From Deltaproteobacteria bacterium (lineage in GTDB: Bacteria; Desulfobacterota; Desulfovibrionia; Desulfovibrionales; Desulfovibrionaceae), in NCBI GenBank assembly GCA_031264465.1, contig JAISDX010000065.1:1-39591 (forward strand): a DNA stretch of 39,591 bases, read 5' to 3'. The position numbers were made by a program, and so were the translations under genes. Under the pieces are notes generated by a model. It saw only the letters and a program-made list of their open reading frames with translations. It was not told the DNA's origin and did not search any database. Positions 2,081-11,092 of the stretch are shown one piece after another (positions within the stretch are counted from its first letter, which is position 1; the number at the start of each line of letters is the position of its first letter).

Positions 2081-4531
2081 CTATTCGTCCTGCTGGCCGG
2101 CGTCGACGCTTTCATCCACCTTGTCAAAGCTGACCACATAGCCGCCTTCATCAATGGAAACTAGGCGCACCCCCTGGGTGTTCCGGCCGATGCTGTTGAT
2201 GTCGCGCACCCCGAAGCGGATAATCTTGTTGGTCGAGGTTAAAAGCAGCAACGCGTCGCTGTCCGTAACCGTAACCGCCCCGATCACCACGCCGGTTTTC
2301 GGCGTAACCTTGAAGTTGATTACCCCGTAGCCGCCACGCGACTGCAGACGGTACAAGTCTATGGAAGTACGCTTGCCGTAGCCGTTGCTGGAAACGGACA
2401 TGATCGTGGCGTTCTCGTCGCCGCCCGGCACGATCACGCAGGCCACCACCTTGTCGTTGCCGCGCAGGGCAATGCCCTTCACGCCGGTGGCGGTGCGACC
2501 CATACTGCGCACATCGCGACAGTTAAAGCGAATGGCCATGCCCTTTTCGGTGGTGAGCACCACGTGGCTGGCATCGTCAATTTCCCGCACGGCAATAAGT
2601 TCGTCGTCATCGCGCAGGCCCAGTGCCTGAATGCCTGTCTTGCGGCACCTGGCGTAAAGCTGGGCATCGGAACGCTTGACCATGCCGCGCCTGGTGGAGA
2701 AGAAGAAAGATTTTTCGGCCGTAAATTCACGCACGGAAAGCACCGTGGCGATATATTCGTCTTTTTCCAGCGGCAAAAGGTTGGCAATATGCACGCCCTT
2801 GGCCGTACGGCTGCCTTCCGGCACCTGATGCGCCTTGAGCTGGTGCATGCGCCCCCGGTTGGTAAAGAGCAGCAGGAACTGATGGCTGGAGGTGGTCAAA
2901 AAGTCCTGCACAAAGTCGTCTTCGCTGGTATGCACTCCGGCAATGCCCTTGCCGCCGCGCTTTTGCTGCTGGTAGACGTCCAGGCTGGTGCGCTTTATGT
3001 AGCCGCGCCGCGACAGGGTGATTACCACGTCGTCGTCTGGAATGAGATCCTCAATATCAATGCCGGTCAGTTCGTCCTCAAGCATTTCGCTGCGCCGGGG
3101 CGTAGCAAAGGTTTTTTTAAGATCTTCCAGCTCTTCGCGAAGAACGCCGCGCAGCACGGTTTCGTCTTCCAGAATGGATTTGAGATAGGTAATCAGTTTG
3201 AGCAGTTCGCGGTATTCCTCAAGCAGCTTCTCGTGCTCAAGGTTGGTAAGGCGCTGCAGACGCATGTCCAGAATAGCCTGGGCCTGAGCTTCGCTGAAGC
3301 TGAAGCGGTTCATCAAATTTTCCCTGGCTTCGGGCGGAGTCTTGGAAGCGCGAATCAGCGCCACCACTTCGTCAATATTGTCCAAAGCCACCCGCAGCCC
3401 CTCCAGGATGTGTGCCCGGGCTTCCGACTTCTGCAAATCGAAACGGGTACGGCGAATAACCACCACCCGGCGGTGCTCCAGGAACTGCTCCAGGGCCGTC
3501 TTCAGGTTCAGCAGCTGCGGCCGGTTGTTCACCACCGCCAGCATGTTGAAGCCGAAAGAGGTCTCCAGCGAAGTAAACTTGTACAGGGAGTTGATGACAA
3601 TGTCCGGAATGGTGCCGCGCTTCAAATCCAGCACAATCCGAATACCCTTGCGGTCCGACTCGTCACGCAGGTCGGAAACGCCGTCGATTTTCCGGTCGTT
3701 CACCAAACTGGCGATTTTTTCCACCAGCGCGGATTTGTTCAGCGCAAAGGGGATTTCGCGAATAACAATAGATTCCGTGCCCTTCTTGCGCGTCTCGATT
3801 TCCACCTTGCCGCGAATTTTAACGGAACCGCGCCCGGTGTGGTAAGCGTCGTACAGCCCCTTGCCGGCATAGACAAAACCGCCGGTGGGAAAGTCCGGCC
3901 CCTTGATATAGGCCATCAAGTCGTCAATGGCGCAGTTGGAATCTTCCAGCAAAAGCAGCAGCCCATCACAGAGTTCGCCCAGGTTGTGCGGCGGAATATT
4001 GGTAGCCATGCCCACAGCGATGCCGGAAGAGCCGTTAAGGAGCAGGTTCGGCACCTTGGTAGGCAGTATGGCCGGTTCCTGCATGGTATTGTCATAGTTG
4101 GGGCGGAACTCGACTGTACTCTTGTCAATATCAGACAAAAATTCGCCGGCCAGGCGGGACATGCGCACTTCGGTATAACGCATGGCCGCCGCAGCGTCGC
4201 CGTCAATGGAACCGAAGTTGCCCTGGCCTTCCACCAACGGGTCGCGCATGGAAAAATCCTGAGCCAGGCGCACCAGGGCGTCATAAACAGCCGAATCGCC
4301 ATGCGGGTGATACTTACCAATGACGTCGCCGACCACGCGGGCGGATTTTTTGGGCGCCCTGTTGAAAGTATTGCCCAACTCGTGCTGCGCGAACATAATA
4401 CGCCGGTGTACCGGCTTGAGCCCGTCACGCGCGTCCGGAATGGCCCGCCCGATAATTACCGACAGCGAATATTCCAGGTAAGACTTCCGCAGCTCTTTCT
4501 CAATACTGATCTGATCGTTTATCTCAGCCAC
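2081..4531 (-). CDS. gyrA: DNA gyrase subunit A
   Basis: GyrA is the DNA-breakage and rejoining subunit of gyrase, which introduces negative supercoils. The protein is 816 residues if it starts at the GTG whose first base is 4531. That start has GAAGG (4539-4543) seven bases upstream and gives [22 protein letters not shown], close to the usual family N terminus. An in-frame GTG at 4558 would add nine residues but has no good ribosome site. The winged-helix region carries [10 protein letters not shown] (quinolone-determining region with Ser and Asp, the sensitive-type residues) and the catalytic Tyr119 in AMRYTEVR. The GyrA box QKRGGKG needed for DNA wrapping is present at the start of the C-terminal beta-pinwheel. 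Two tiny open frames precede it (see 4542-4615). Confidence 0.97.
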
Positions 4532-4541
4532 AGTGTAACCT

Positions 4542-4615
4542 TCATAAAAATATCCCACGCATTACCGCGGGAGCAAAATATCCAGTAAAACAATCCTACT
4601 TGCCTTACCCCACAT
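4542..4615 (-). CDS. Possible leader: two tandem mini-ORFs between gyrB and gyrA
   Basis: On the minus strand an AGGAGG (4620-4625, with a further GAGG adjoining) lies just upstream of an ATG at 4615. That ATG opens a 17-codon frame, [17 protein letters not shown], ending TAA at 4562-4564. The TAA overlaps a second ATG (TAATG) that opens a six-codon frame, MRGIFL, ending TGA at 4542-4544. This TGA overlaps the GAAGG that serves the gyrA GTG. The arrangement could couple gyrA translation to the leader or regulate it. It could also be chance, since the frames are very short. No homologue is known to me. Confidence 0.3.
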
Positions 4616-4666: not shown

Positions 4667-8280
<3,614 letters not shown>

Positions 8281-8309
8281 ATAAACTCCTTTTGTAGAAG
8301 CAGGGTCTG

Positions 8310-8339
8310 AGTATATGTTTTTAAAATTTATAATGACAA
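8310..8339 (-). promoter_or_regulatory. Predicted sigma-70 promoter for dnaN-gyrB-gyrA
   Basis: Read on the minus strand, TTGTCA (8334-8339) and TATACT (8310-8315) are separated by 18 bases of almost pure A+T. Each hexamer matches the sigma-70 consensus at five of six positions. It lies about 30 bp upstream of the dnaN ATG and would allow dnaN and the gyrase genes to be transcribed independently of dnaA. Confidence 0.55.
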
Positions 8340-8375
8340 TAAATAATTAAAAATTAAATTAACACTAACTATAGC
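8311..8375. other. AT-rich segment between dnaA and dnaN (possible DNA-unwinding element)
   Basis: The dnaA-dnaN gap contains a run of about 65 bases that is almost entirely A and T, with A- and T-tracts such as TTTTTAAAATTTATAAT and AATAATTAAAAATTAAATTAA. In many bacteria an unwinding element flanks dnaA. No consensus DnaA box was seen beside it. It overlaps the dnaN promoter, so the composition may simply reflect that. Confidence 0.35.
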
Positions 8376-8396
8376 TGACCCGGATTTTTACGCGCA

Positions 8397-9758
8397 TCAG
8401 GCAACAAATGACCCGCGGCGGTTTTTAGTCAGGCACATATTTCTCAAGTTGGTGACAAGTTTGTTAATATCTCTGTTTGTTTTAATCATTTCCTTAACTT
8501 TATTAATAGAATAGACCACGGAAGAATGGTTCAGACCCATGAACTCGCCAATCAGGCTCAAATTGACCGGAAGCAGTTCGCGTAAAAGGTACATGGTCAA
8601 CTGACGGGCCAGTACAACCTGGCGGGAACGCTCCTTGCCCCTGAGGCCGGCGGCGGCAAGGTTCATATGTTCCGCCACGCAATTCAGCACCAGTTCCGGC
8701 GTGAGACTAACGGCACCGCTGACGCCGGAGTTCTTTAAAATATCGGACAGGACGAAATCCGTATCGCTGGGCTTCAGGCTTTTAAATGACCAAACTTTAA
8801 GCATGGTGCCGTGGATTTGTCTGAATTCCGAATAGAGTCTGGCCAGGTAAAGAATTTCCTCTTTTTTAAGGTGCAGTCCGAGTTTGTCGTTCTGTCCCTG
8901 GATGTAACGGGTTTTTATGTCCAAATCTGGTTTTTTTATTTCGATGATCAGTCCGCTTTCCAGGAGCGAACGCAGCCTGCCGGAAAGGTAGGGGCAGGCT
9001 GCCGGGGACGCGTCAACGGACAGGGCAAGATAAATTTTTTGTTCCGAGCACTGCTCCAGCAACTTGACCAGATTTTTCTGAAATTCCGGCTTGCCGGCGC
9101 ACTCTTGAAAGTTGTCGATTATGAGCGCTTTCAAATCGCAGAACGGCAAAAAAAACGGATTGCCTTTTCCCTTATTGTTCTCAATTATTGTTTCTAATTC
9201 TTCCAACTTACCAAAAAATATGCTGTTTTCATGAATATAAGTCCTCATTTCCTGAAAGATGGCGGTCAGAATATGGCTTTTTCCATAGCCGGGCGCGGCG
9301 TAAAAAGCCAGTTGCCCAGGTCCTTCAAGTTTGGCGAATTCCCTGGCGGCCGATAGCGGAAATTCGTTTTTCCGGTTGTAGAGAAAGTTTTCAAAAGTTT
9401 GAGAAAAAGTTTTGGCGAAGCTTTGGACCGCGACCGCTTCATCTGTTTTTTCCAGACTCTGTTTATTGGTGAACAGCCGGTAACTAGTGTTTTTTTTTGT
9501 CTTTAACTTGTCACCCGGCCAGCACAGTCCGGAATGGTCACAATAGACCGGAATCAGGTTTGAAGCAGCGAATTTGTTTAGTTTTTTTTCAAAAGAGGAG
9601 CGGTAGTTGGCGTCAAACCACTCAAAAAAAAGCCGATGTGGAAAGCGCACCTGGAGATTATTTTTATCCTGCTGAAATAGAAGCGGGTCAAACCAGATTT
9701 CAAGCTCGGTTTCAGGAATTTCCCCAAGAAAAAAGTCGCGCAACCGCTGTTTTAACAT
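8397..9758 (-). CDS. dnaA: Divergent chromosomal replication initiator DnaA
   Basis: The 453-residue protein has the DnaA architecture: domain I (about 1-85), linker, AAA+ domain (about 110-345) and helix-turn-helix domain IV (about 350-445). Key motifs are eroded. Walker A is APGYGKS (A154-S161) instead of GGTGLGKT. Walker B is LIIDNFQ (D215, N216) instead of the usual DD. In box VII the RL.S core is kept (R261) but the position aligning with E. coli arginine finger R285 is Leu265. Sensor II Arg313 is retained. In domain IV the recognition signature GRDHTTV reads GLNHSSV (408-414), while the phosphate-contacting Arg385 is kept. The gene is visibly richer in A+T and Lys/Asn than its neighbours. 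The family is clear from synteny and domains; normal initiator activity is not. There is no strong ribosome site before the ATG. Confidence 0.9.
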   Translation of the reverse strand: MLKQRLRDFFLGEIPETELEIWFDPLLFQQDKNNLQVRFPHRLFFEWFDANYRSSFEKKLNKFAASNLIPVYCDHSGLCWPGDKLKTKKNTSYRLFTNKQSLEKTDEAVAVQSFAKTFSQTFENFLYNRKNEFPLSAAREFAKLEGPGQLAFYAAPGYGKSHILTAIFQEMRTYIHENSIFFGKLEELETIIENNKGKGNPFFLPFCDLKALIIDNFQECAGKPEFQKNLVKLLEQCSEQKIYLALSVDASPAACPYLSGRLRSLLESGLIIEIKKPDLDIKTRYIQGQNDKLGLHLKKEEILYLARLYSEFRQIHGTMLKVWSFKSLKPSDTDFVLSDILKNSGVSGAVSLTPELVLNCVAEHMNLAAAGLRGKERSRQVVLARQLTMYLLRELLPVNLSLIGEFMGLNHSSVVYSINKVKEMIKTNRDINKLVTNLRNMCLTKNRRGSFVA

Positions 9759-9833
9759 CAGTTTTTATCAGTAAAATTAATAAATTATGAAATAAAAGGG
9801 CCATGCCGGCGGCAATTTGGATTTCCTCTAAAA

Positions 9834-9842
9834 TTATCCATA
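9834..9842 (+). promoter_or_regulatory. Near-consensus DnaA box
   Basis: TTATCCATA differs from the consensus TTATCCACA only at position 8. It lies about 75 bp upstream of the dnaA start. It is the only good match I noticed in the dnaA-flanking gaps. The DnaA encoded here has an altered recognition helix, so the true site may differ. Confidence 0.4.
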
Positions 9843-9880
9843 AATGTAACACGAAATTAAGATTTTTACAACATCCATCT

Positions 9881-9910
9881 CCGGTTTATCGGTTGCTTTA
9901 CGATAACCGG
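9881..9910. repeat. Imperfect inverted repeat upstream of the RacA-like gene
   Basis: CCGGTTTATCG (9881-9891) is mirrored by CGATAACCGG (9901-9910), complementary except for one extra T, around a nine-base spacer. The element ends 45 bp before the 9956 start codon. It looks like an operator for a dimeric DNA-binding protein, either the adjacent HTH protein or the divergent DnaA. Confidence 0.5.
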
Positions 9911-9955
9911 ATATGTTAAAGAAAATGCGGTCGATCAAAAAAAATGGGGTAATTT

Positions 9956-11092
9956 ATGAGCGAAAAGGCACTCACGCATAAAGAATTGTCCGTACTGCTC
10001 GGTGTTTCCGAAACCACTGTAAAAAGTTACCGGCGCAAGTTTCCGGGCAGCATTCCGGTGGCCAACAAAGGAAAGCCTATTCGTTTCAAGCCTGAAGCCG
10101 CCGGAATTTGCCTGCGCATTCGCGACTTGTTCGCCGAGGGCATGTCCGTTGAAGAGGTGGGGGCCAGACTGACTCAGGAATTTGGCTGGAGGCGGCCCAG
10201 AAGCGCCGAGAGCGCCGTCAGGCCGCCGCAGAAAAAAAACGGCGGCGTTGACCTTTCGCAAAGCTTCGCCACGGCGCTGGGCAACATGGCCAAGAGCATG
10301 ATTTCTCTTAACCAGTCGCACACCGGCATTTTGAATACCCTTAAAAATGTTGAGACCATGCTGGGCGAGATTGGGCTGGGCAATTTCAAAATTGACGCCG
10401 AAGCCATCGTGGACGCCCGGCGCAAGAACGAGGCCGTCGCGTCCGAAGCTTTTACCGGCATTACCCGGGCCATGGACCAGGCGGCCGCCACGTTGGAGTC
10501 GACCGGGGTAGCCCTGGAGGAAAGCCGTGAACTGCGCCGGGAGCAGGCCAGGGAAAACGCGGTTATCATCGAAACCCTGGAAAAAGTTCTGGAAGCGCTA
10601 AGAGATGTTTCCGCCAGGCCGGCCCTCTCCGCTCCTCCCGAAAGGCCGAAAGTGGTCTACCTGCATCAGGAGCGGTCGGCTGGCGAGTCGGCCGCGAGTT
10701 CCGTTCAACCGGAAACCGCGTCGGATCTTTCGCCGGACTTTTCGGAAGCCCCGCGCCGCCTGCTGCAACTGCCCCTAGTGGTCCGCCTGGAAAACGGCAC
10801 TTATATCAGCGCAGGCGGCAAGAGCCTCGGCAAAATAACCCTTAACGACGTCAAGGCCATGCTGGCCCAGTCCTACCTGCCGCCGGACAACTTCCAACTG
10901 CGCTGGGAGCGCGACCCTGAGGGAATTTGGGCGGTGCTGGAACAGCGCGAGGGAACGGCCCTGCGCCTGCTCACCAGCGAAATAGTCTCGGCCCGGGGAA
11001 CCAGCGTGCTGGAGGTGGCCGCTTTCAAGGAAGAAGGCGTGCAGCAGCACCCGGTGGATTTTTGTCGCTTCCTTGGGGAAATCGGCCGCTGA
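9956..11092 (+). CDS. MerR-type HTH / coiled-coil protein, RacA-like architecture
   Basis: This is a 378-residue protein. Residues 1-75 form a MerR-like winged HTH (THKELSVLLGVSETTVKSYRRKFPG, then IRDLFAEGMSVEEVGARL). A basic, low-complexity linker follows. About residues 95-220 are a long helical, coiled-coil-like region (LNQSHTGILNTLKNVETMLGEI, ESRELRREQARENAVIIETLEKVLEAL). A linker rich in Ser, Pro and Glu leads to a folded C-terminal domain of about 110 residues (LPLVVRLENGTYISAGGKSLGKITLNDVKAML to the end) that I do not recognise. No ligand-binding domain of a classical MerR regulator is visible. The layout resembles Bacillus RacA, which anchors the origin region, but that is architecture only. 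It is transcribed divergently from dnaA. A transcriptional regulator is the main alternative. Confidence 0.8.
   Translation: MSEKALTHKELSVLLGVSETTVKSYRRKFPGSIPVANKGKPIRFKPEAAGICLRIRDLFAEGMSVEEVGARLTQEFGWRRPRSAESAVRPPQKKNGGVDLSQSFATALGNMAKSMISLNQSHTGILNTLKNVETMLGEIGLGNFKIDAEAIVDARRKNEAVASEAFTGITRAMDQAAATLESTGVALEESRELRREQARENAVIIETLEKVLEALRDVSARPALSAPPERPKVVYLHQERSAGESAASSVQPETASDLSPDFSEAPRRLLQLPLVVRLENGTYISAGGKSLGKITLNDVKAMLAQSYLPPDNFQLRWERDPEGIWAVLEQREGTALRLLTSEIVSARGTSVLEVAAFKEEGVQQHPVDFCRFLGEIGR

Follow-up and report, generated by a model that had tools for sequence, protein, structure and literature searches.

The dnaA gene that precedes dnaN in this genome encodes a divergent DnaA. It is probably the displaced original initiator of the order, kept as an accessory protein that would bind DnaA boxes without unwinding DNA and that is now eroding in its genus. 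The observed basis of this reading consists of two dnaA copies in the genome, synteny, the phylogenetic tree, residue losses, faster evolution, deletion or truncation of the gene in congeners, and DnaA-box-like sites upstream of the other copy. The gene starts with ATG and encodes 453 amino acids on the minus strand of the window, which here means the whole stretch of 39,591 nucleotides analyzed. The locus is composed as follows.

2081–4558, minus strand: gyrA (profile match).
4667–7108, minus strand: gyrB (profile match).
7108–8280, minus strand: dnaN, sliding clamp, the next gene downstream of the window dnaA (profile match).
8281–8396: AT-rich spacer between dnaA and dnaN, GC 0.276 (composition).
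8397–9758, minus strand: divergent dnaN-linked DnaA paralog with domains I–IV (profile matches, AlphaFold model, structure matches).
9759–9955: AT-rich spacer upstream of dnaA, GC 0.325, with the near-box TTATCCATA at 9834–9842.
9956–11092, plus strand: divergent MerR-type HTH gene, the same locus flank as in congeners.

A preliminary description made from the letters alone had called the gene more AT-rich than gyrB, gyrA and the genes to its right, and this is indeed the case: its GC content is 0.459, against 0.516 for dnaN, 0.56 for gyrB, 0.60 for the right-hand gene and 0.593 for the whole window, and its GC3 is 0.544 against 0.66–0.72. The low GC and GC3 of the dnaN-linked dnaA are found mainly in the window's genus and were not seen order-wide.

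As one of two alternatives, the same description had supposed that a second, canonical DnaA elsewhere initiates replication and that the window copy has a specialized role. A profile search of the genome (2.27 Mb, 176 contigs, 97.6% complete) for PF00308/PF08299 returned exactly two genes, the window copy and one on contig C164 that scores 134 bits with PF00308. In the C164 DnaA, Walker A and B are intact along with the Arg finger, sensor II and R227, the residue at R245 is basic, and the motifs read SEPGLGKT, LLLED, SRLFSRISSG (Arg finger) and GRTHSTV. Its gene follows ruvB- and thyX-like frames, named by eye from the translation, and dnaN is not near; upstream of it there are sites resembling DnaA boxes. 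As the genome does contain a second DnaA, this alternative stands; the intact C164 protein supports its first half, and that support does not extend to the specialized role. The C164 DnaA is most likely the one that carries out initiation. A count of two dnaA genes per genome is on record for Desulfovibrio, Desulfomicrobium, Desulfohalobium and Lawsonia (PMC3080875), and the preliminary description was thus correct in mentioning two for some Desulfovibrio genomes. The copy number is the same as here; the passage concerned gives copy numbers and nothing on locus, residues, ancestry or acting copy.

The window DnaA belongs to an order-wide, dnaN-linked paralog of the Desulfovibrionales. Such a divergent copy is present in 43 of 59 genomes searched (42 by score, G048 by locus), and at all 18 readable loci (the window and 17 relatives) it lies directly upstream of dnaN-gyrB-gyrA. 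A direct search for the other copy succeeded in every order genome to which it was applied, and none of the 20 loci checked for that copy has dnaN nearby. About ten genomes have the other copy alone, and in these no dnaA stands beside dnaN-gyrB wherever dnaN was readable. In a careful tree of 47 rows, the dnaN-linked copies, including that of the window, cluster together (100/100). So do the other copies (100/100), and their group falls within a phylum-wide class (100/100) that was never beside dnaN in the loci checked; typical DnaAs of the phylum are often dnaN-linked. In an AU test, the topology with the two copies as simple sisters was rejected only marginally (p 0.038) and a deeper shared origin of the two classes was not rejected (p 0.54); synteny, more than the tree, is therefore the ground for reading the gene as a displaced original. 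Two genomes of another family (G123 and G167, L128–L132) carry a dnaN-proximal typical DnaA together with one or two unlinked-class copies, possibly an intermediate state of initiator replacement.

By fold and domain architecture the window protein is a DnaA homolog. It passes both Pfam cut-offs, with 58–61 bits for Bac_DnaA (PF00308, cut-off 23) and 65.4 bits for Bac_DnaA_C (PF08299, cut-off 31.5). The AlphaFold model, built with 28 sequences, has a mean pLDDT of 84.6; domain I, the AAA+ domain and domain IV are mostly above 90, and the linker 87–117 is disordered. The best PDB matches of the model are all DnaA (8btg, 1l8q and 2hcb). The protein shares with known DnaA domains I, III and IV, the fold, the position before dnaN, the Walker A Lys, the Walker B Asp, sensor II and the box-contact Arg and His. 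Unlike known DnaA, it is one of two in its genome and scores 197.2 bits with the DnaA equivalog TIGR00362, well under the cut-off of 343.9 bits. Residue positions were taken from an alignment to E. coli DnaA and more than 100 relatives.

9276–9299, minus strand: Walker A AAPGYGKS (residues 154–161); Lys160 and Ser161 kept, first Gly replaced by Ala154.
9138–9140, minus strand: Cys207 at E. coli Arg227 (AID-1).
9111–9116, minus strand: Walker B Asp215-Asn216 at E. coli D235-D236.
9084–9086, minus strand: Glu225 at E. coli Arg245 (B-motif, single-stranded origin binding; role from PMC5742627).
8964–8966, minus strand: Leu265 at the arginine-finger position (E. coli Arg285).
8820–8822, minus strand: Arg313, sensor II (E. 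coli Arg334), kept.
8628–8630, minus strand: Arg377 (E. coli Arg399), kept.
8517–8537, minus strand: domain IV motif GLNHSSV (residues 408–414); E. coli GRDHTTV.

Every residue named in the preliminary description holds in this alignment: Leu at R285, Asp-Asn in Walker B, GLNHSSV for GRDHTTV, and the retained sensor II and phosphate-contacting arginines. The alignment adds Ala154, Cys207 and Glu225 to the deviations. Thus four initiator-class residues (arginine finger, second Walker B acid, Arg227 and Arg245) are missing, being Leu265, Asn216, Cys207 and Glu225, and two, sensor II Arg313 and Walker A Lys160, are present. The contact residues R377, R385, Q386 and H411 are kept. Ser at T435 is nothing unusual, being present in 27 of the 29 typical DnaAs sampled from the phylum, and on this alignment the real deviations in GLNHSSV are R432L, D433N and T436S only. 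A loss at V211 was dropped because two alignments put different residues there.

Taken as evidence of inactivity, two of the three original diagnostics, R285 and the domain IV motif, do not hold up, since one genus has a sole-copy DnaA without R285 and none of the 21 other copies examined has retained D433. In five genomes of genus g33 (5/5 species; loci L312, L315, L317, L318 and L319 of G038, G055, G043, G051 and G047), the sole DnaA has Gln at the arginine-finger position (SQFCDG), and the other-class DnaA has Tyr there in G041 and Cys in G024. Here an essential initiator seems to function with the Arg finger missing. At D433, the 21 copies of the presumed initiator have Arg, Lys, Thr, Ser, Asn, Gln or Ala, and Gln408 is mostly Asn (L036–L054, L074 and the C164 copy, L035). 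With these replacements, the box preference of this DnaA may differ from TTATCCACA.

Within the dnaN-linked paralog, 29 of 30 copies from other genera retain R285, the exception being one species; all four copies read from the window's genus have lost it. Two further ATPase positions are also lost mainly in the genus. As most members in the order keep the arginine finger, Walker B and a GKDHST motif, the protein may bind and hydrolyze ATP outside the window's genus. The losses at R227 and R245 are more telling than R285 or the domain IV motif. In E. coli these two arginines are tied to oligomer activation and single-strand binding (PMC5742627). Nearly all DnaAs of the typical kind and of the other class have Arg or Lys at R227, which most dnaN-linked copies have lost; at R245 a basic residue is found in 19 of 21 other copies and 27 of 30 typical DnaAs, and most members of the dnaN-linked clade have a non-basic one.

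All the above suggest a probable course of events. The lineage of the window gene would be the original DnaA at the dnaA-dnaN-gyrB-gyrA position, and an unlinked DnaA of a different class, in this genome that of C164, would have taken over initiation. The window copy is predicted to retain a folded domain I, a nucleotide-binding site and the box-binding domain IV, but the residues on which activation of the oligomer by ATP and capture of single strands depend are missing. The protein should therefore bind DnaA-box-like sites without unwinding. What is left to it is most likely an accessory role, in which it would compete with the true DnaA, titrate it or assemble together with it by way of domains I and IV. 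Within the genus of the window, constraint would have relaxed further and the gene would be on its way to being lost. For the order as a whole, we tentatively suggest that the initiator was swapped: a DnaA class never linked to dnaN, with altered box contacts and in places without an arginine finger, would initiate, and the dnaN-linked original would be a dedicated non-unwinding regulator lost lineage by lineage.

The dnaN-linked copies form a single order-wide clade with its own signature (for example NKKNYFPLASA, against GxxNQFAxAAA in typical DnaA), keep domain IV and, in most members, the arginine finger, and are linked to dnaN. These features would also suit a dedicated negative regulator with a defined, order-wide control function, acting with an effect like that of Hda or of box titration and being no leftover at all. 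We consider this possible but rather doubtful, as the gene has been lost repeatedly within the order with no evident substitute. In Hda, domains I and IV are absent and the arginine finger is retained. The window protein shares the DnaA-like AAA+ domain with Hda, and the structures 3bos and 5x06 match; unlike Hda it has the full DnaA architecture with domains I and IV, and its 62.6 bits with the Hda profile TIGR03420 are far under the cut-off of 194.8.

The state of the gene in close relatives bears on whether it has any function left. In the congener G001, some 430 bp of AT-rich non-coding DNA separate dnaN from the MerR gene, and tblastn detects no trace of DnaA there. This clean deletion argues against essentiality of the dnaN-linked copy. 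The congener G006 has a 330-codon dnaA frame without domain I and box VII, and the frame is intact in G000 and G002. Compared with G002, the window dnaA is 51% identical, the other dnaA 64%, dnaN 80%, gyrB 79% and gyrA 87%. For the G000–G002 pair of the window dnaA, pN is 0.33 and pS 0.79; pN and pS are quoted and dN/dS ratios were dropped because synonymous sites are saturated for this pair. With pN well under pS, the window dnaA still encodes a constrained protein, loosely. A pure relic, functionless in the window's genus and decaying until deleted, would account for the deletion and the truncation, for an identity of 51% where the neighbors have 79–87%, for the low GC and GC3 of this genus only and for the two further ATPase positions lost mainly there. 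We nevertheless judge it unlikely, given the intact frames in two species, the excess of pS over pN, the three domains modeled with high confidence and the four contact residues that are kept.

The 300 bp upstream of the other copy contain 18 one-mismatch boxes over 21 species (shuffled mean 1.9, maximum 7), concentrated about 200–230 bp before the start, which looks like autoregulation. The 300 bp upstream of the dnaN-linked copy contain 5 (shuffled mean 2.05, maximum 6), and no box cluster lies upstream of the window copy, where 9759–9955 has the one near-box TTATCCATA. Clusters of TTATCCACA-type boxes were rejected as a mark of oriC, as there are none by the window copy and the autoregulation-like sites of the other copy are no proof of oriC. 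A pair of TTTTGCACA sites with a near-copy occupies a short intergenic region on contig C145 of the same genome (14084–14113, L309), and this cluster showed no sign of being an origin. In G012 (L077:500–1494), from which the dnaN-linked dnaA has been lost, about 1 kb of very AT-rich non-coding DNA lies upstream of dnaN, with TTATGCACA-like sites near its right end; it is possibly a retained origin.

Coarse GC skew was informative in the complete genomes G042, G058 and G118 (L160–L219) and uninformative in G031. The distance of the switch from the dnaN-linked copy is small in G118, 20–200 kb in G058 and about 300 kb in G042; in none of the three is the switch at the other copy. Both this result and the peculiarities of the other copy (D433 replaced, R285 lost in some species) count against the reading of the window gene as a displaced initiator. 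The origin of G042 and G058 seems not to be next to any dnaA gene. Since the switch is never at the other copy and variably far from the dnaN-linked one, the origin does not identify the initiator. Placement of the origin by GC3 skew across the two loci was discarded because it is confounded by coding direction. That the window copy is itself the active initiator, with an unusual oligomerization mode and a different box, as first proposed, and that the other copy is secondary is very improbable: it occupies the classical dnaA locus, in G118 and G058 the dnaN-linked copy is the nearer of the two to the skew origin, and the g33 protein implies that an initiator can lack the arginine finger, but the dnaN-linked copy is missing from many order members and deleted (G001) or truncated (G006) in congeners, the other copy is found in every order genome directly searched, R227 and R245 are lost, and conserved boxes upstream of the dnaN-linked copy were not found.

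In the literature that could be searched, neither the locus pattern nor the residue losses nor the stepwise loss turned up in any earlier work. D. vulgaris Hildenborough has two dnaA genes, the dnaN-linked DVU0001 and DVU2252, and the main texts of the literature searched do not state which dnaA of D. vulgaris is essential. The dnaN-adjacent dnaA serves to name oriC, to set genome coordinate 1 and to build markers, and the G118 genome sequence starts at the divergent dnaN-linked dnaA. If this copy has been retired in the Desulfovibrionales, these anchors point to the wrong protein. The order would then be a natural experiment in the replacement of the DnaA initiator, with intact, eroded, truncated and deleted stages in close relatives. 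The sole DnaA without an arginine finger in one genus makes a textbook requirement directly testable. A second divergent DnaA is likewise kept throughout a clade in the case of DnaA1/DnaA3 of the Chlamydiae (PMC4989314), which belong to another phylum; the likeness lies in the clade-wide second copy. In G205, a single-contig genome of the same phylum, 17 PF00308 matches were reported.
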